Assembly: GCF_003144095.1 (NCBI RefSeq)
Contig: NZ_NSKH01000023.1
Coordinates: forward strand, 358,964 to 422,963
Source of the DNA: Streptomyces sp. ICBB 8177
GTDB lineage: Bacteria; Actinomycetota; Actinomycetes; Streptomycetales; Streptomycetaceae
Direction of reading: 5' to 3'
DNA: 64,000 bases
Shown piece by piece: positions 45,984 through 53,537 of the stretch. Each line of letters starts with the position of its first letter. Positions within the stretch are counted from its first letter, which is position 1. The position numbers and the translations under genes were made by a program. The notes below the pieces were generated by a model. That model did not search any database and had not been told where the DNA came from. It saw only the letters and a program-made list of their open reading frames with translations.

Positions 45984-46604
45984 TCACCAGCCCGCTTCCG
46001 CGCCGGTCAGCTCCCGCGCCGCCGGGCGCGCCGCGTCCAGCACGGTGCCGAACCACGCGGACAGCGTCGCCCCCGCGCCCAGCTCGGCCAGCTGCGCCGG
46101 GGTCACGAAGGTGGTCTCCATGACCTCCTGCGGGTCCGGCCGCGGCTCGGCACGGACCAGCCCCACGAACAGGTGGTTGAACTCCTGCTCCACCAGCCCG
46201 GACGCCGGGTCCGGATGGTTGTAGCGCACCGTCCCCGCCTCGCGCATCAGCACCGGCGCGACGCCCAGCTCCTCCGCCGTGCGCCGGGCGGCGGCAACGA
46301 ACGGCTGCTCGCCCGGGTACGGGTGACCGCAGCAGGTGTTGGACCACACCCCGGGGGAGTGGTACTTGCCCAGCGCCCGCCGCTGCATCAGCAGCCGCCC
46401 GGCGTCGTCGAACAGGAAGACGGAGAAGGCGCGGTGCAGCCTGCCGGGAGGCAGGTGTGCGGAGAGTTTCTCCGCGGTCCCGATCGTCGTCCCGGTCTCG
46501 TCGACCAGTTCCAGCAGGATCGCCTCCGCGCTGCCGTTGACGGTCGAGCTGCCGTTGGAGGCCGGCCCGGTTGACGCTGAGCCGGTGGCGGGAGAGATCG
46601 GCAT
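45984..46604 (-). CDS. idi: Isopentenyl-diphosphate delta-isomerase (type I)
   Basis: Nudix-fold metalloenzyme interconverting IPP and DMAPP. The 206-residue protein has a Ser/Gly/Asn-rich N-terminus, then ILLELVDETGTTIGTAEKLS, HRAFSVFLFDDAGRLLMQRR, HSPGVWSNTCCGHPYPGEQP with the catalytic Cys in NTCCGHP, the Nudix-like AARRTAEELGVAP, and EQEFNHLFVGLVRAEP with the catalytic Glu region. ATG at 46604 (MPISPA) has AAGGA 5 nt upstream; earlier Met codons are possible. It supplies allylic starter for the polyprenyl/hopanoid genes 7 kb downstream on the other strand. Confidence 0.95.
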   Translation of the reverse strand: MPISPATGSASTGPASNGSSTVNGSAEAILLELVDETGTTIGTAEKLSAHLPPGRLHRAFSVFLFDDAGRLLMQRRALGKYHSPGVWSNTCCGHPYPGEQPFVAAARRTAEELGVAPVLMREAGTVRYNHPDPASGLVEQEFNHLFVGLVRAEPRPDPQEVMETTFVTPAQLAELGAGATLSAWFGTVLDAARPAARELTGAEAGW

Positions 46605-46805
46605 GGCCATCCTTCGCTGTTGAACCTCGGTAACGCCCTGCTTCTTGCCGCTCACACCGTGACGTTCACGACGTACGCGAAGGCCCCAGTCTGCCGCACT
46701 CCGTCCCGCCCGCGAGAGTGATCACGGTCGTCGTCACCCCCGTGTCAGCCCCGGCGCCTCCCCTCGGCACGCACAGGGCGGCGTGCCATGATGCGCCTGC
46801 CGAGC

Positions 46806-46827
46806 CCGGGGTGAACCTGCGGTGAAC
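46806..46827 (-). promoter_or_regulatory. PhoP box (two 11-bp direct repeats GTTCACC-N4)
   Basis: On the minus strand the units GTTCACCGCAG and GTTCACCCCGG are exactly adjacent, matching the Streptomyces PhoP direct-repeat unit consensus. It lies in the 360-bp region between divergent idi and the glycolipid operon. The second unit overlaps where the -35 would be for a plus-strand promoter with -10 GATAGC (46846-46851), while its orientation would fit idi. Apart from these elements the region holds nothing else I can identify. Confidence 0.65.
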
Positions 46828-46964
46828 GCCGCCTTCCGCCGATCCGATAGCCTCTGCCGTCGAGCCCGTCCCGGCGTCACGGGGGCGTGGTGGCCGTCGC
46901 GCCCGCGTCCCGGCCGTGCCGCGGGCGGCCTCGCACCAGATCACATCCAGGGGAGTGAGTTCGT

Positions 46965-48782
46965 CTGTCGACCGCCATCCTCACCGGCCCGCCGGTCGCG
47001 GGCTCGCCGCTCACCGAGGACCTGCGCGCCCTCGGCTTCGACGTCACCGTGGCGGACGGCCCCGGGCGGCTGGCGGCCGAGCTGGCGGCGGCGCCCGCCG
47101 GGGCCAGGGTCGCCGTGGTCGACCCCCGGTTCACCGGCCACCGGCACGCCCTGCGGCTGGCGCTGACCGACCCCCGTTTCCCGGCGGGCGCGATCCCCGG
47201 CGCCCTCGGCGCGACCGGCGCCGCCCGCGCCGAGCTGGCCTGCGCCGTCCGTGAGCCCGCCGCGGCGGCCACCGGCAACGGCAACGGCACCGGCCAGGGC
47301 GGCACGCCCACCCCCGACGCCCTGGCCGCCGCGCTGGAGGGCGCCGGGATCGACGTGCACCGTCCGGAACTCGGCGTCCTGGTCGCCGCCGTGCCCGCCG
47401 ACGAGACGGCCCGCGCGCGGGCCCGCGAGGCCACCGCGGGCGTGGACGACGAGGCGGTGCGGCTGCGCAGCGCGGTCAAGTCCCGCGACGGCTTCTTCAC
47501 CACCTTCTGCGTCAGCCCCTACTCGCGCTACCTCGCCCGCTGGTGCGCCCGGCGCGGGCTCACCCCCAACCAGGTCACCACCGCGTCGCTGCTGGTCGCG
47601 CTGATCGCCGCCGCCTGCGCCGCCACCGGCACCCGCCCCGGCTTCGTCGCCGCCGGCGTGCTGCTGATCGCCTCGTTCGTGCTGGACTGCACCGACGGCC
47701 AGCTGGCCCGCTACTCCCTCCAGTACTCCACGCTCGGCGCCTGGCTGGACGCCACCTTCGACCGGGCCAAGGAGTACGCCTACTACGCGGGCCTGGCGCT
47801 GGGCGCCGCCCGCGGCGGTGACGACGTGTGGGCGCTGGCCCTGGGCGCGATGGTGCTCCAGTCCTGCCGCCACATCGTCGACTTCTCCTTCAACGAGGCG
47901 AACCACGACGCGACCGCCAACACCAGCCCGACCGCCGCCCTGTCCGACCGGCTCGACAGCGTCGGCTGGACGGTGTGGGTGCGGCGGATGGTCGTGCTGC
48001 CGATCGGCGAGCGCTGGGCGCTGATCGCCGTGCTGACGGCCGTCACCACGCCCCGGATCGTCTTCCTGGTGCTGCTGGTCGGCTGCGCGCTGGCCGCCTG
48101 CTACACCACCGCCGGGCGTCTGCTGCGCTCGCTGACCCGCAGGGCCCGCCGCACCGACCGCGCCGCCCAGGCCCTGGCCGACCTCGCCGACACCGGGCCC
48201 GTCGCCGAAGCCGTCGCGCGGGTCGCCCCGAAGCGGCTGCCGTCCTTCGCCGCCCCCGCGGTCGCGCTGCTCGGCGCCGCCGCCGTGGTCGCCACCGCCT
48301 GGCTGACCCCGCACGGCTCCTGGTGGCCGCTGCTCGCCGCCGCCCTCTACGCGGTCACCTCGGGCGTGGCGGTCGCCGCGCCGCTGAAGGGCGCGCTGGA
48401 CTGGCTGGTGCCGCCGCTCTTCCGGGCGGCCGAGTACGTGACGATCCTGGCGCTGGCCGCCCGCTCGGGGCTGCACGGCGCGGTCCCGGCGGCGTTCGGG
48501 CTGGTCGCGGCCGTCGCCTACCATCACTACGACACGGTGTACCGCATCCGCGGCGGCACCGGCGCGCCACCGCGGGCCCTGGTCCGCGCGTCCGGCGGGC
48601 ACGAGGGCAGGGTGCTGGTCGTGACCGCGCTCGCCGCCCTCCTCGCGGACCGTACGACGTTCACTTGGGCGCTGGCGGCTCTGGCCGGGCTGCTCGCGCT
48701 GACGGTGCTCACCGAGTCCATCCGTTTCTGGGTCTCGGCCGGGGCGCCCGCGGTACACGACGAAACAGGAGAACCCACATGA
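46965..48782 (+). CDS. CDP-alcohol phosphatidyltransferase family protein with N-terminal DUF5941-like domain
   Basis: Large membrane protein (605 residues with this start). An N-terminal soluble domain of about 140 residues (STAILTGPPVAGSPL, VAVVDPRFTGHRHALRLALT) resembles the streptomycete DUF5941-type segment. It is followed by a CDP-alcohol phosphotransferase domain with an intact signature: LDCTDGQLARYSLQY, then GAWLDATFD, giving all four Asp. Several more TM helices follow. The reading frame clearly extends upstream of the GTG at 47049 with coding-type codon usage to a CTG at 46965, which has AGGGGAG 9 nt upstream; an in-frame TGA at 46956 blocks anything longer. Probably transfers a phospho-alcohol from CDP to a membrane acceptor. 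First gene of the operon. Confidence 0.85.
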   Translation: MSTAILTGPPVAGSPLTEDLRALGFDVTVADGPGRLAAELAAAPAGARVAVVDPRFTGHRHALRLALTDPRFPAGAIPGALGATGAARAELACAVREPAAAATGNGNGTGQGGTPTPDALAAALEGAGIDVHRPELGVLVAAVPADETARARAREATAGVDDEAVRLRSAVKSRDGFFTTFCVSPYSRYLARWCARRGLTPNQVTTASLLVALIAAACAATGTRPGFVAAGVLLIASFVLDCTDGQLARYSLQYSTLGAWLDATFDRAKEYAYYAGLALGAARGGDDVWALALGAMVLQSCRHIVDFSFNEANHDATANTSPTAALSDRLDSVGWTVWVRRMVVLPIGERWALIAVLTAVTTPRIVFLVLLVGCALAACYTTAGRLLRSLTRRARRTDRAAQALADLADTGPVAEAVARVAPKRLPSFAAPAVALLGAAAVVATAWLTPHGSWWPLLAAALYAVTSGVAVAAPLKGALDWLVPPLFRAAEYVTILALAARSGLHGAVPAAFGLVAAVAYHHYDTVYRIRGGTGAPPRALVRASGGHEGRVLVVTALAALLADRTTFTWALAALAGLLALTVLTESIRFWVSAGAPAVHDETGEPT

Positions 48783-49516
48783 TCGGCCTCGTGCTGGCGG
48801 CCGGCGCCGGACGGCGTCTTCGCCCCTACACCGACACCCTGCCGAAGGCCCTGGTGCCGGTGGACGGGGACACCACCGTCCTGGACCTGACCCTGGGCAA
48901 CTTCGCCGAGGTCGGCCTGACCGACGCGGCCGTGGTCATCGGCTACCGGGGCGAGGCCGTCGTCGAGCGCAAGGCCGCGCTGGAGAAGAAGTACGGCGTC
49001 AAGCTCCACCTCGTCGTCAACGACAAGGCCGAGGAGTGGAACAACGCCTACTCCCTGTGGTGCGCCCGGGACGTCATCAAGGAAGGCGTCATCCTCGCCA
49101 ACGGCGACACCGTGCACCCGGTCTCGGTCGAGAAGACCCTGCTGGCCGCGCGCGGCGCCGGACAGCGCATCATCCTGGCCCTCGACACGGTCAAGTCGCT
49201 GGCCGACGAGGAGATGAAGGTCATCACCGCGCAGGGCAAGGGCGTCCAGCGGATCACCAAGCTGATGGACCCGGCCGGCGCCACCGGCGAGTACATCGGT
49301 GTCACCCTGATCGAGCCGGAGGCCGCCGAGCCGCTCGCCGACGCGCTGCGCGCCACCTACGAGCGCGACCCGCAGCTGTACTACGAGGACGGCTACCAGG
49401 AACTGGTCGACCGCGGCTTCACCGTGGACGTGGCGCCGATCGGCGAGGTCTCCTGGGTCGAGATCGACAACCACGACGACCTCGCCAAGGCCCGGGGGAT
49501 CGCGTGCCAGTACTGA
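48779..49516 (+). CDS. Nucleotidyltransferase (LicC-like phospho-alcohol/sugar cytidylyltransferase)
   Basis: 245-residue NTP-transferase. The N-terminal pyrophosphorylase signature LVLAAGAGRRLRPYTDTLPK is followed by ALVPVDGDTTVLDLTLGNFA and VVIGYRGEAVVE, the pattern of LicC and related CTP:phosphocholine or phospho-alcohol cytidylyltransferases. NNAYSLWCARDVIKEGVILA and GEVSWVEIDNHDDLAKA near the end are also LicC-like, with Asp residues for Mg. ATG overlaps the upstream stop (ATGA). It would make the CDP-activated alcohol used by the two CDP-alcohol transferases beside it. Actual substrate unknown. Confidence 0.9.
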   Translation: MIGLVLAAGAGRRLRPYTDTLPKALVPVDGDTTVLDLTLGNFAEVGLTDAAVVIGYRGEAVVERKAALEKKYGVKLHLVVNDKAEEWNNAYSLWCARDVIKEGVILANGDTVHPVSVEKTLLAARGAGQRIILALDTVKSLADEEMKVITAQGKGVQRITKLMDPAGATGEYIGVTLIEPEAAEPLADALRATYERDPQLYYEDGYQELVDRGFTVDVAPIGEVSWVEIDNHDDLAKARGIACQY

Positions 49517-50565
49517 CCCGGCTGATCCCCTCGCCGGTCGTCGTGGACATCCGGCGCGGCGCGCTGGACGACCTCGCGGGTCTCCTCGCCGACCAGCGCA
49601 TCTCCAGCTCCGGCAGGCTGGCGGTGGCGATCAGCGGGGGCTCCGGGGCGGCGCTGCGCGAGCGGCTCGCCCCGGCCCTGCCGGACGCCGACTGGTTCGA
49701 GGTGGGCGGCGGCAGCATCGACGCGGCGGTGAGGCTCTCCAACGCGATGAGCGGCAAGAACTACGACGCGCTCGTGGGCCTCGGTGGCGGGAAGATCATC
49801 GACGCTTCGAAGTACGCGGCCGCCCGGGTCGGCCTGCCCGTCGTCGCCGTCGCCACCAACCTCTCGCACGACGGCATCTGCTCTCCGGTGGCGACGCTCG
49901 ACAACGACCACGGCCGGGGCTCTTACGGCGTGCCGACCCCGATCGCGCTCGTCATCGACCTCGACGTGGTCCGTCAGGCACCGCAGCGCTTCGTCCGGTC
50001 AGGTGTGGGCGACGCGATCTCCAACATCAACGCGATGGCCGACTGGGAGCTGTCGAACCAGGTGACCGGCGAGCGCGTCGACGGTCTCGCGGGCGCGATG
50101 GCCCGGACCGCCGGAGAGGCGGTGCTGCGGCACACCGGCGGCATCGGCGACGACGACTTCCTCACCACGCTCGCGGAGGCGCTGGTGCTCTCGGGCATCG
50201 CCATGTCCGTGAGCGGTGACAGCCGTCCGGCGTCCGGCTCCTGCCACGAGATCCTGCACGCCTTCGACATCCTCTACCCGCAGCGCGCGCCGGCGCACGG
50301 CGAGGGCGCCGGTATCGGGGCCGCGTTCGCCATGCATCTGCGCGGTGCCGCCGAGGAGTCCGGGCAGATCGTCGAGGTGTTGCGGCGCCACGGCCTGCCG
50401 GTGCTGCCGGGCGAGGCCGGTTTCTCGGACGAGGAGTTCGTCCGGGTCGTCGAGTACGCCCCTCAGACCCGCCCCGGCCGGTTCACCATCCTCGAACACC
50501 TCGATCTCGACTCCGACGCCATCAGGGATGCGTACGCCGACTATGTCAAAGCCATCGGTAGCTGA
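49504..50565 (+). CDS. Glycerol-1-phosphate dehydrogenase-like, iron-containing alcohol dehydrogenase family
   Basis: 353-residue NAD(P)-dependent dehydrogenase. Seen: DYDALVGLGGGKIIDASKYA-type nucleotide loop (VGLGGGKIIDASK), VAVATNLSHDGICSPVATLD (the SHDGxxSP motif of sn-glycerol-1-phosphate dehydrogenases EgsA/AraM), SGSCHEILHAFDILY (metal His) and PAHGEGAGIGAAFAM (metal His). It would reduce dihydroxyacetone phosphate or a similar phospho-ketone to a phospho-alcohol. GTG start overlaps the upstream gene by 13 bp. In the operon it is flanked by a nucleotidyltransferase and two CDP-alcohol transferases, suggesting it makes the alcohol that is activated and transferred. Confidence 0.88.
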   Translation: MPVLTRLIPSPVVVDIRRGALDDLAGLLADQRISSSGRLAVAISGGSGAALRERLAPALPDADWFEVGGGSIDAAVRLSNAMSGKNYDALVGLGGGKIIDASKYAAARVGLPVVAVATNLSHDGICSPVATLDNDHGRGSYGVPTPIALVIDLDVVRQAPQRFVRSGVGDAISNINAMADWELSNQVTGERVDGLAGAMARTAGEAVLRHTGGIGDDDFLTTLAEALVLSGIAMSVSGDSRPASGSCHEILHAFDILYPQRAPAHGEGAGIGAAFAMHLRGAAEESGQIVEVLRRHGLPVLPGEAGFSDEEFVRVVEYAPQTRPGRFTILEHLDLDSDAIRDAYADYVKAIGS

Positions 50566-51322
50566 ACTGCGGCCGGTCGTGCACCCCGCGGGGGTGAAGG
50601 ACCGGCGCAGCGGTGAGCACTGGGCCGGGCGCATGTACATGCGGGAGATCTCGCTGCGCATCGACCGGCACCTTGTCACCACCCGGGTCACCCCCAACCA
50701 GCTGACCTACCTGATGACCGTCTGCGGCGTGCTGGCCGCCCCGGCGCTGCTGGTGCCGGGCATCCCGGGCGCCGTGCTGGGCGTCGTGATGGTCCAGCTG
50801 TACCTGCTGCTGGACTGCGTGGACGGCGAGGTCGCCCGCTGGAAGAAGCAGTTCTCGCTGTCCGGGGTCTACCTCGACCGCGTCGGCGCCTACCTCACCG
50901 ACGCCGCGGTCCTGGTCGGCTTCGGCCTGCGCGCCGCCGACCTGTGGGGCTCGGGGCGCATCGACTGGCTGTGGGCGTTCCTGGGCACCCTCGCCGCGCT
51001 CGGCGCGATCCTCATCAAGGCCGAGACCGACCTCGTCGGCGTGGCCCGGCACCAGGGCGGGCTGCCGCCGGTCAAGGAGGCGGCCGCCGAGCCGCGTTCG
51101 TCCGGTGTGGCGCTCGCCCGGCGGGCCGCCGCCGCGCTGAAGTTCCACCGGCTGGTCCTCGGCGTCGAGGCGTCCCTGCTGATCCTGGTGCTCGCGGTCG
51201 TCGACCAGATCCGCGGCGACCTGTTCTTCTCGCGGCTGGGCGTGGCGGTGCTCGCGGGCATCGCGCTGTTGCAGACGCTGCTGCACCTGGTGTCCGTCCT
51301 GGCGTCGAGCAGGCTGCGGTGA
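50543..51322 (+). CDS. CDP-alcohol phosphatidyltransferase family protein (atypical motif)
   Basis: 259-residue membrane protein. The family signature is present as LDCVDGEVARWKKQF and GVYLDRVGAYLTD. Compared with the consensus DxxDGxxAR-x8-GxxxDxxxD, the first three Asp are present but the fourth is Ala (DRVGA). TM helices follow on both sides; NQLTYLMTVCGVLAAPALLV precedes the motif. It may be a subfamily with different chemistry. ATG overlaps the dehydrogenase gene by 23 bp. An acceptor or alcohol cannot be named. Confidence 0.85.
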   Translation: MSKPSVAELRPVVHPAGVKDRRSGEHWAGRMYMREISLRIDRHLVTTRVTPNQLTYLMTVCGVLAAPALLVPGIPGAVLGVVMVQLYLLLDCVDGEVARWKKQFSLSGVYLDRVGAYLTDAAVLVGFGLRAADLWGSGRIDWLWAFLGTLAALGAILIKAETDLVGVARHQGGLPPVKEAAAEPRSSGVALARRAAAALKFHRLVLGVEASLLILVLAVVDQIRGDLFFSRLGVAVLAGIALLQTLLHLVSVLASSRLR

Positions 51323-52203
51323 GCGCGGCCATGAAACTCGGCGCGGTCGTGCTGACCATGGGCAACCGCCCCGACGAACTGCGCGCGCTGCTGGACTCGG
51401 TGGCCAGGCAGCGCGGCGACGCCATCGAGGTCGTCGTCGTCGGCAACGGCTCGCCGCTGCCCGAACTCCCGCACGGCGTAAGGACGGTGGAGCTGCCGGA
51501 GAACCTCGGCATCCCGGCCGGGCGCAACGTCGGCATCGAGGCGTTCGGCCCCGGCGGCAGCGAGGTGGACGCGCTGCTGTTCCTCGACGACGACGGGCTG
51601 CTGCCCCGGGACGACACCGCCGAGCTGGTGCGCGAGGCGTTCGCCGCCGACCCCAGGCTGGGCATCATCTCGTTCCGCATCACCGACCCGCAGACCGGCA
51701 GCACGCAGCGCCGCCACGTGCCGAGGCTGCGCGCCTCCGACCCGTTGCGCTCCTCGCGCGTCACGACGTTCCTCGGCGGCGCCAACGCCACCAGGACGGC
51801 GGTCTTCCAGCAGGTCGGCGGGCTGCCCGGCGAGTTCTTCTACGCGCATGAGGAGACCGACCTGGCCTGGCGGGCGCTGGACGGCGGCTGGCTGATCGAC
51901 TACCGCGCGGACATGGTGCTGGAGCACCCGGCGACCGCCCCGAGCCGGCACGCCGTCTACCACCGCATGGTGGCCCGCAACCGGGTCTGGCTGGCCCGCC
52001 GCAACCTCCCGGCGCCACTGGTCCCGCTGTACCTGACCACGTGGATCCTGCTGACACTCGCCCGACGCCCGTCCCGTCCCGCGCTGCGGGCCTGGCTGGG
52101 CGGGTTCAAGGAGGGCTGGACGAAGCCGTGCGGACCGCGCCGGCCGATGCGCTGGCGCACGGTGTGGCGGCTGACCAGGCTGGGAAGGCCGCCGGTCATC
52201 TGA
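51319..52203 (+). CDS. Glycosyltransferase family 2
   Basis: 294-residue cytosolic GT-A transferase. Seen: LGAVVLTMGNRPDELRALLD, PENLGIPAGRNVGIEAFGPG, ALLFLDDDGLLPRDDTAEL (DDD metal-binding motif), TTFLGGANATRTAVFQQVGG, FFYAHEETDLAWRALDGGW (acceptor-side ETDLAWR motif) and a basic C-terminus. GTG overlaps the upstream stop (GTGA); an ATG 4 codons later is also possible. In this operon it would decorate the product made by the CDP-alcohol transferases. Confidence 0.92.
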   Translation: MSAAMKLGAVVLTMGNRPDELRALLDSVARQRGDAIEVVVVGNGSPLPELPHGVRTVELPENLGIPAGRNVGIEAFGPGGSEVDALLFLDDDGLLPRDDTAELVREAFAADPRLGIISFRITDPQTGSTQRRHVPRLRASDPLRSSRVTTFLGGANATRTAVFQQVGGLPGEFFYAHEETDLAWRALDGGWLIDYRADMVLEHPATAPSRHAVYHRMVARNRVWLARRNLPAPLVPLYLTTWILLTLARRPSRPALRAWLGGFKEGWTKPCGPRRPMRWRTVWRLTRLGRPPVI

Positions 52204-52311
52204 CGACTCCGGCGTTACGCGCCCGGTTGGGCGGCTGCTCGGCCCGAATCCGCCTCGCGTTCACCTTTCCCTGATGTGCTGCCTACCGCGGCGCTTCAGG
52301 GGAAGGTACGG

Positions 52312-53091
52312 ATGACGGACGCGGTACGGGACGAGCGGGTGCCCACGGTCGTCGTGCAGGGACTGCACATCGTCTACCGGGTGCACGGCGGCGGTGGCGG
52401 CAAGCGCAGCGCGTCGGCGGCCCTCGGGCGCCTGGTGCGCCGCCAGGCCACTCCCCACCTGCGCGAGGTGCACGCCGTGCGCGGGGTGAGCTTCGTCGGG
52501 TACCGCGGTGAGGCGGTCGGGCTGATCGGCACCAACGGCGCGGGCAAGTCCACGCTGCTGCGGGCGATCGCCGGGCTGCTGCCGCCCGAGCGCGGCCGGG
52601 TGTACGTCGAGGGCCGCCCGTCGCTGCTGGGCGTCAACGCGGCCTTGATGAACGATTTGAGTGGCGAGCGCAACGTCATACTCGGCGGCCTGGCGATGGG
52701 CATGGGCCACCGCGAGATCCGCGAGCGCTACCAGGACATCGTTGACTTCTCCGGCATCGACGAACGCGGCGACTTCTCCTCGCTGCCGATGCGCACCTAC
52801 TCCTCCGGCATGGGCGCCCGGCTGCGGTTCGCCATCGCCGCCTGCAAACGGCACGACGTACTGCTCATCGACGAGGCGCTGGCCACCGGTGACGTGGCGT
52901 TCCAGCGGCGGTCGCTGGAACGCATCCGTGAGCTGCGCGAGCAGGCCGGCACGGTCTTCCTGGTCAGCCACAACAACCGCTCGATCCGCGAGGTGTGCGA
53001 GCGGGTGCTGTGGCTGGAGCGCGGTGAACTGCTGATGGACGGACCCACGGAAGCGGTGCTGGCCGCCTACGAGGAGCACACCCGCGGCTGA
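52312..53091 (+). CDS. ABC exporter ATP-binding protein (TagH/RfbE-like polysaccharide export)
   Basis: 259-residue ATPase of the teichoic-acid/O-antigen exporter class. VHAVRGVSFVGYRGEAVGLI, Walker A GTNGAGKSTLLRAI, the TagH-group VNAALMNDLSGERNVILGGL, signature YSSGMGARLRFAIAACKRHD, Walker B VLLIDEALATGDVAFQRRSL and H-loop LVSHNNRSI are intact. ATG with GGAAGG 5 nt upstream. The ABC-2 permease partner is missing from the window, so it must lie elsewhere. Closing gene of the glycolipid operon, 108 bp after the glycosyltransferase. Confidence 0.92.
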   Translation: MTDAVRDERVPTVVVQGLHIVYRVHGGGGGKRSASAALGRLVRRQATPHLREVHAVRGVSFVGYRGEAVGLIGTNGAGKSTLLRAIAGLLPPERGRVYVEGRPSLLGVNAALMNDLSGERNVILGGLAMGMGHREIRERYQDIVDFSGIDERGDFSSLPMRTYSSGMGARLRFAIAACKRHDVLLIDEALATGDVAFQRRSLERIRELREQAGTVFLVSHNNRSIREVCERVLWLERGELLMDGPTEAVLAAYEEHTRG

Positions 53092-53169
53092 CCGAACGCC
53101 CCGGCCTCGACCCGATCGTGAGCGAGCCGTCGCGAATCCGTTGCGGTAATCGCGCCGTCCGCGCGGGAG

Positions 53170-53190
53170 CCTGCCGATACGGTCGGCAGG
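53170..53190. terminator. Candidate hairpin terminator after the glycolipid operon
   Basis: CCTGCCGA (53170-53177) and TCGGCAGG (53183-53190) form an 8-bp stem with a 5-nt loop, 78 bp after the ABC ATPase stop, with no T run. Confidence 0.45.
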
Positions 53191-53286
53191 GGCCGTACGT
53201 GTGACAGCGATCAACTCATGTGGCGGAGGGGAAGATTCGCGGCCCCCGTGTTGTTCGACGTCATGGGTGAATGACCGGGAGACCCG

Positions 53287-53317
53287 GGCGTACGCCGGAT
53301 CCCTGTACGGCGTACGC
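53287..53317. promoter_or_regulatory. Paired palindromes GGCGTACGC, candidate operator of the hopanoid operon
   Basis: GGCGTACGC occurs at 53287-53295 and 53309-53317, 22 bp apart start to start, i.e. two helical turns; each contains the palindrome GCGTACGC. They lie in the 446-bp gap upstream of hpnC. Possible -10 sequences such as TAGAAC lie about 140 bp further down, near 53456-53461. No gene is seen in this gap. Confidence 0.45.
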
Positions 53318-53537
53318 TGAGTCAATGCCCACCGCCGGACCGCCCACGACCTGCCCTTCGGCGCGCGGGGTGCGGGGGCGCACGGCGGCGACGGCAGGAA
53401 CGGAGGGCGGTATTGGGTGCGGCGTGTCCGAAATGGGAAGAACCTGAGGATCAGTGTAGAACGGGGGGTGTGGCGGCCATGAACACGGAACCCATCCAGC
53501 TCCGGGGCACGTCCGCCGCTGCGACATGGGGCGACCC

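Follow-up and report, generated by a model that had tools for sequence, protein, structure and literature searches.

A conserved PHO box, reversed relative to its gene, as the probable PhoP operator of a putative phospho-alcohol polymer operon in Streptomyces

In Streptomyces, the PHO boxes bound by PhoP have been defined as two 11-nt direct-repeat units with a GTTCACC core (PMC6988585, PMC4415409). The position of the box has been associated with the sign of regulation, a box over the -35 being described as a repressor position and a box just upstream of the -35 as an activator position (PMC7244524). The review PMC4415409 lists amtB as repressed by PhoP, and in Bacillus subtilis PhoP~P was reported to repress tagAB (PMC6232261). 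Related regulators may act on similar DNA, as AfsR binds the PHO boxes of pstS and phoRP (PMC6988585) and MtrA has been described to recognise two short direct repeats (PMC5650626). Finally, a phosphate-depletion network of S. coelicolor includes SCO6753, for which a PHO box or dyad and an effect of phoP were given (PMC4173021).

The window analysed here is a stretch of 64,000 nucleotides from Streptomyces sp. ICBB 8177, in which the divergent region between idi and a plus-strand operon contains the following features:

45984-46610, minus strand: idi, the divergent neighbour (start chosen by eye)
46806-46816, minus strand: distal PhoP direct-repeat unit, GTTCACCCCGG
46817-46827, minus strand: proximal PhoP direct-repeat unit, GTTCACCGCAG, read as GGTGAAC on the plus strand at 46821-46827
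46842-46859, plus strand: near-invariant ATCCGATAGCCTCTGCCG block, found by column conservation, with the inferred -10 TAGCCT (46848-46853)
46950-46967, plus strand: ribosome-binding site GGGGAG and inferred CTG start codon (46965-46967) of operon gene 1

The original prediction had placed two adjacent 11-bp PhoP-type units at 46806-46827, pointing towards idi. Both units were indeed found there on the minus strand, which reads GTTCACCGCAG GTTCACCCCGG and agrees with the two-unit Streptomyces PHO box in 14 out of 14. The site thus comprises two 11-nt direct-repeat units with a GTTCACC core, and it lies in a promoter with which it is conserved (see below). The GTTCACCNNNNGTTCACC pattern is present exactly once in the window, at 46810-46827; when up to three mismatches are allowed it has ten matches compared to a shuffle mean of 4.99, so that in the window the exact match alone stands out. 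In the whole genome (6,326,228 bases) three exact copies of GTTCACCN4GTTCACC were found, and PHO-box pairs with at most one mismatch numbered 13, against two for a reversed-pattern control. Two of these 13 best sites belong to expected Pho genes: an exact box upstream of a PHO4-family phosphate transporter gene and a box with one mismatch upstream of pstS, the units pointing with the gene in both cases. Further near-perfect pairs (L005, L003, L007; site at 1501-1518), all in coding orientation, precede genes for an iron/manganese superoxide dismutase (one mismatch), a pyridine nucleotide-disulphide oxidoreductase (exact) and a GDT1-family transporter (one mismatch). The genome also carries PhoR-PhoP, as phoU is adjoined by a PhoR-like kinase and an OmpR-type response regulator of 226 aa; the NCBIfam PhoB and PhoR models match regulator and kinase below their cut-offs, and these names rest partly on gene order.

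Scoring with a PhoP-box matrix, suggested along with the original prediction, relied on a matrix derived from 24 pstS boxes; six of the 30 pstS-family loci were left out as having no pair with at most two mismatches, and these may be other paralogues. All 24 pstS pairs with at most two mismatches were in coding orientation, and in all of them the GTTCACY of the second unit ends 31 nt before the -10. The window site reached 26.0 of a maximum of 27.9 bits, compared to a 99% level of 11.3 and a maximum of 20.9 in shuffled promoters. A chance origin of the repeat pair was ruled out by the genome control, the promoter shuffles and this matrix. Sequence, genome-wide control and conservation agree on the predicted PhoP box, and the repeat pair looks like a real, conserved docking site for PhoP in Streptomyces-type bacteria.

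Conservation was assessed over 104 distinct regions upstream of orthologues of gene 1 (DUF5941/CDP-alcohol transferase), taken from the best-scoring loci and hence leaning towards close relatives. The duplicate L002 and loci whose protein match scored below 400 bits or began beyond residue 2 had been dropped before counting, and six of 110 upstream sequences were dropped as identical to another. The best pair showed no mismatch in three promoters, one in 39, two in 29, three in 20, four in eight and five in five; a pair with at most two mismatches was therefore present in 71 of the 104, where composition shuffles (20 per promoter) gave an expectation of 0.2, with a mean of 0.2 promoters at two mismatches and 3.2 at three. 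In the 33 promoters with at least three mismatches these fell mostly within the distal unit. The best pair ran opposite to gene 1 in 99 promoters, and the other five, all at four to five mismatches, comprised two on the same strand and three ties. The 99% shuffle level of the pstS-derived matrix was exceeded in 83 promoters, each of the 83 in opposite orientation. In a column profile, which 101 of the 104 promoters entered, GGTGAAC (plus strand) held 1.4-2.0 bits per column and the proximal unit hardly varied. In the distal unit AAC is retained, and a GAAC stood at an offset of exactly 11 nt, upstream of the proximal GAAC, in 53 of the 101 promoters, against none or one at any other offset from 5 to 21.

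To follow the box further, a second set was assembled from 10 + 24 loci of the family (34 in all); it may share species with the first. Fourteen of these loci carried it, twelve identified by the promoter core together with L220 and L243; all ten loci of genus g10 are among them, the other four coming from g6, g7 and g13. The 20 loci in which no box was found belong to genera g2, g5, g9, g11, g12 and g15, all outside the main genus. For some of the 24 loci the upstream region is extrapolated or uncertain, as 11 match from residue 34 or later and two more are split genes; L265 and L266, being second fragments, were left out. L216 was counted as boxed despite a poor distal unit (four mismatches), and L260 as boxless despite a three-mismatch pair away from the promoter core. 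By eye, a TCCGGTAGCCT-like -10 block is still present in nine of the 20 boxless loci, showing that the promoter can be kept where the box is absent. Among loci of other genera, L245, L249, L256 and L259 show such a block before the operon and no PHO box, and they offer a natural comparison for the gain or loss of phosphate control. In relatives outside the family, whose start sites are uncertain, a pair with at most three mismatches was found in none of 19.

The promoter of the plus-strand operon is best seen in the ATCCGATAGCCTCTGCCG block, whose first 13 bases, ATCCGATAGCCTC, are exact in 78 of the 104 promoters and differ by one mismatch in the other 26. Streptomycete -10 elements have the form TAnnnT. 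TAGCCT (46848-46853) fits this form and was read as the -10, which would place the transcription start near 46860. The proximal GGTGAAC ends 20 nt before TAGCCT, so that it would cover the -35 position; by position, then, the overlap with the -35 named in the original prediction is upheld. The gap between box and ATCCGATAGCCTC is 14 nt in 102 of 104 promoters (99 when the proximal unit is located in an alternative way). A sigma-70 consensus scan of 46500-47100 returned no promoter, and the hexamer at the -35 position is poor compared to TTGACA, which points to a weak -35 of the operon. A shared sigma-factor promoter class was ruled out, as the GGTGAAC-N14-ATCCGATAGCCT core occurs genome-wide in one exact copy and the next has three mismatches. 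A structured RNA leader was searched for and none was found (best Rfam E 0.3; fold z-score 0.23). In the aligned promoters gene 1 starts with CTG (56 of 104) or TTG (48 of 104), never with ATG or GTG, and a strongly conserved GGAGTGAGTTC lies ahead of the start.

The original prediction had left the regulated side open. Comparison settles it in favour of the plus-strand operon, with which the box travels: the spacing to the -10 is fixed, the divergent neighbour changes (galE-like in 65 of the 104 promoters, zitB in 25, idi in 13, not found in one), and idi genes away from the operon have no such box. In 22 loci where idi is not adjacent, its own upstream region contained a box with at most two mismatches in no case and one with three mismatches in a single case. 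As a conserved target idi was consequently rejected, and the site is probably a functional PhoP operator of the operon. On the minus side, the first nine bases of a conserved element, GATCATCAT, were found with at most one mismatch in 91 of the 104 promoters. Its distance to the box ranges from 15 to 89 nt with 23 different spacings, 35 nt being the commonest (32 of 91); divergent-side spacing is thus loose, not random. A minus-strand promoter at fixed spacing was ruled out by these 23 spacings, and no fixed -10 was seen by eye. The GATCATCAT element occurs with galE-like, zitB and some idi neighbours, and in L036, L080, L037 and others it is followed on the minus strand by a second GATC and, by eye, by CACAAAC; a longer pattern of this type had no copy with at most two mismatches in the promoter of the window.

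The operon downstream of the box consists of six genes, which overlap or nearly abut from 46965 to 53091, with a 72-bp gap before the last:

46965-48782, plus strand: gene 1, CDP-alcohol phosphatidyltransferase domain and DUF5941, 605 aa
48779-49516, plus strand: gene 2, nucleotidyltransferase, nearest solved relative CTP:phosphocholine cytidylyltransferase
49510-50565, plus strand: gene 3, glycerol-1-phosphate dehydrogenase-like
50558-51322, plus strand: gene 4, second CDP-alcohol phosphatidyltransferase
51319-52203, plus strand: gene 5, family 2 glycosyltransferase
52276-53091, plus strand: gene 6, ABC ATPase, best NCBIfam matches to teichoic acid export TagH models, below cut-offs

A relative of gene 2 was present in 77 of 80 loci. 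Among the parts of a teichoic-acid-like operon, a cytidylyltransferase, a phospho-alcohol transferase, a glycosyltransferase and an ABC ATPase were found, and the permease of a two-part exporter was not seen, the open reading frame lists inspected by eye for 52203-53526 showing none beside the TagH-like ATPase. The original prediction had spoken of a phosphoglycolipid operon. The name is loose, as the gene set has a closer resemblance to a pathway for a teichoic-acid-like phospho-alcohol polymer; the putative product is likely a phospho-alcohol polymer or glycolipid. Squalene/phytoene synthase genes follow the operon after a gap of 434 bp. The operon is uncharacterised and widely conserved in streptomycetes, and its proposed assignment to the phosphate regulon would suggest that it makes an envelope polymer containing phosphate.

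We hold with moderate confidence that the site is an authentic PHO box serving as operator of the six-gene operon and not of idi, and that PhoP~P represses the operon under phosphate limitation. In such a mechanism PhoR would phosphorylate PhoP when phosphate is limiting, and a PhoP~P dimer would occupy both 11-bp units in a head-to-tail arrangement that runs against the operon and covers its -35 position, blocking RNA polymerase. The shut-off would spare phosphate otherwise put into a glycerol-phosphate or phospho-alcohol polymer of the wall or lipid. PhoP binding, the transcription start and the repressive sign are all predictions from sequence; position and orientation make repression the most likely sign. 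Activation in E. coli likewise uses sites that overlap the -35 position. That PhoP instead activates the operon when phosphate is limiting, with the proximal unit taking the place of the weak -35, has in its favour the poor -35 hexamer and the ability of PhoB-type activators to replace a -35. The phoP effect on SCO6753, the sign of which is not given in the portion of PMC4173021 consulted, would agree with it as well. We nevertheless consider activation unlikely: the units point with the gene in the 24 boxed pstS promoters and at the PHO4-family transporter, but against the operon in all 91 promoters with at most three mismatches, and one would hardly expect a pathway that uses up phosphate to be induced. 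How a box is oriented does not fix the sign of PhoP action by itself, since amtB, described as repressed by PhoP (PMC4415409), has in this genome a single GTTCACC unit in coding orientation as its best match, without a good second unit. The best amtB pairs of 30 loci had three to five mismatches, 19 in coding and 11 in opposite orientation, and amtB was accordingly not informative as a repressed control. In phoU promoters (26 loci) pairs were found at three to five mismatches, with coding orientation in 23.

Another OmpR-family regulator sharing PhoP sites, AfsR or MtrA, might be the main binder. The binding of AfsR to the pstS and phoRP boxes noted above (PMC6988585) would allow this, and the site fits the loose MtrA consensus (G/T-T-G/A-A-C-C-N5-G-T-G/T-A-C; PMC5650626) with two mismatches in 11 on the plus strand and three on the minus strand, values that an ideal PHO box gives as well. 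MtrA-like matches at two mismatches are common, however (46 in the window), and the full match to the PhoP consensus, close to the top of the pstS-derived matrix, makes another main binder quite improbable. An activator site for the divergent gene, here idi, towards which the units point as they do in pstS, is very improbable: the divergent gene is not conserved, the 22 non-adjacent idi genes lack a box with at most two mismatches, only towards the operon is the spacing constant, and in the window the box lies about 200 bp from the start of idi. At galE-like loci the median distance of the box to the divergent start (140) is similar to that to the operon (137), so that a secondary effect there is possible. 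Least probable of all, to a degree we regard as remote, is that GGTGAAC is a mere conserved -35 element and the second repeat a coincidence. Conservation is much stronger in the proximal unit than in the distal one, and the proximal unit keeps a rigid distance to the -10, as such an element would, but the distal AAC is kept at exactly 11 bp, as the GAAC counts given above illustrate, and several relatives keep the -10-like block in the absence of GGTGAAC, which is thus not an obligatory -35.

Phosphate limitation would offer a simple condition for testing the product of the operon. The PhoP link has partly been anticipated in print through SCO6753. In S. coelicolor SCO6750 is idi (PMC6767563) and SCO6751 is zitB (PMC5472717); the gene order in S. 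parvulus is idi, a cation-efflux gene, the DUF5941 gene and the nucleotidyltransferase, and by this order SCO6753 would correspond to gene 2 of the orthologous operon. The consulted portion of PMC4173021 treats SCO6753 by network inference and mutant comparison and gives neither a footprint nor sign, orientation or conservation. Literature searches on locus tags, DUF5941 and PhoP with the enzymes returned no footprint or ChIP of the operon promoter, and an earlier detection by ChIP is possible.

The PHO box of pstS is alike in its 11-bp units, GTTCACC core and near-identical matrix score. Unlike it, the operon box is reversed with respect to the gene and lies 20 nt rather than 31 nt from the -10, that is, one 11-bp unit closer. 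The moderate interest of the site rests on this reversed, register-shifted and conserved geometry. We tentatively suggest that reversal and a shift by exactly one unit make the box a dedicated off-switch, orientation and register setting the role of PhoP as activator or repressor, and the contrast with pstS would provide a clean test of whether they set the sign of its action. If so, several sister genera would have lost the switch or never acquired it, and the operon would be tied to phosphate, not to the neighbouring squalene/phytoene synthase (hopanoid-type) genes. The resemblance to B. subtilis tagAB, if the proposed repression holds, lies in the shut-off of a phosphate-rich wall polymer pathway under phosphate starvation. 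The operon described here differs in encoding CDP-alcohol phosphotransferases and a glycerol-1-phosphate dehydrogenase-like enzyme, the tagAB DNA motif differs from the one found here, and repression is in this case a proposal from sequence comparison. With an off-switch of this kind, Streptomyces would shut down a non-Tag phospho-polymer pathway to spare phosphate, by a control whose origin is independent from that of the B. subtilis tagAB switch.
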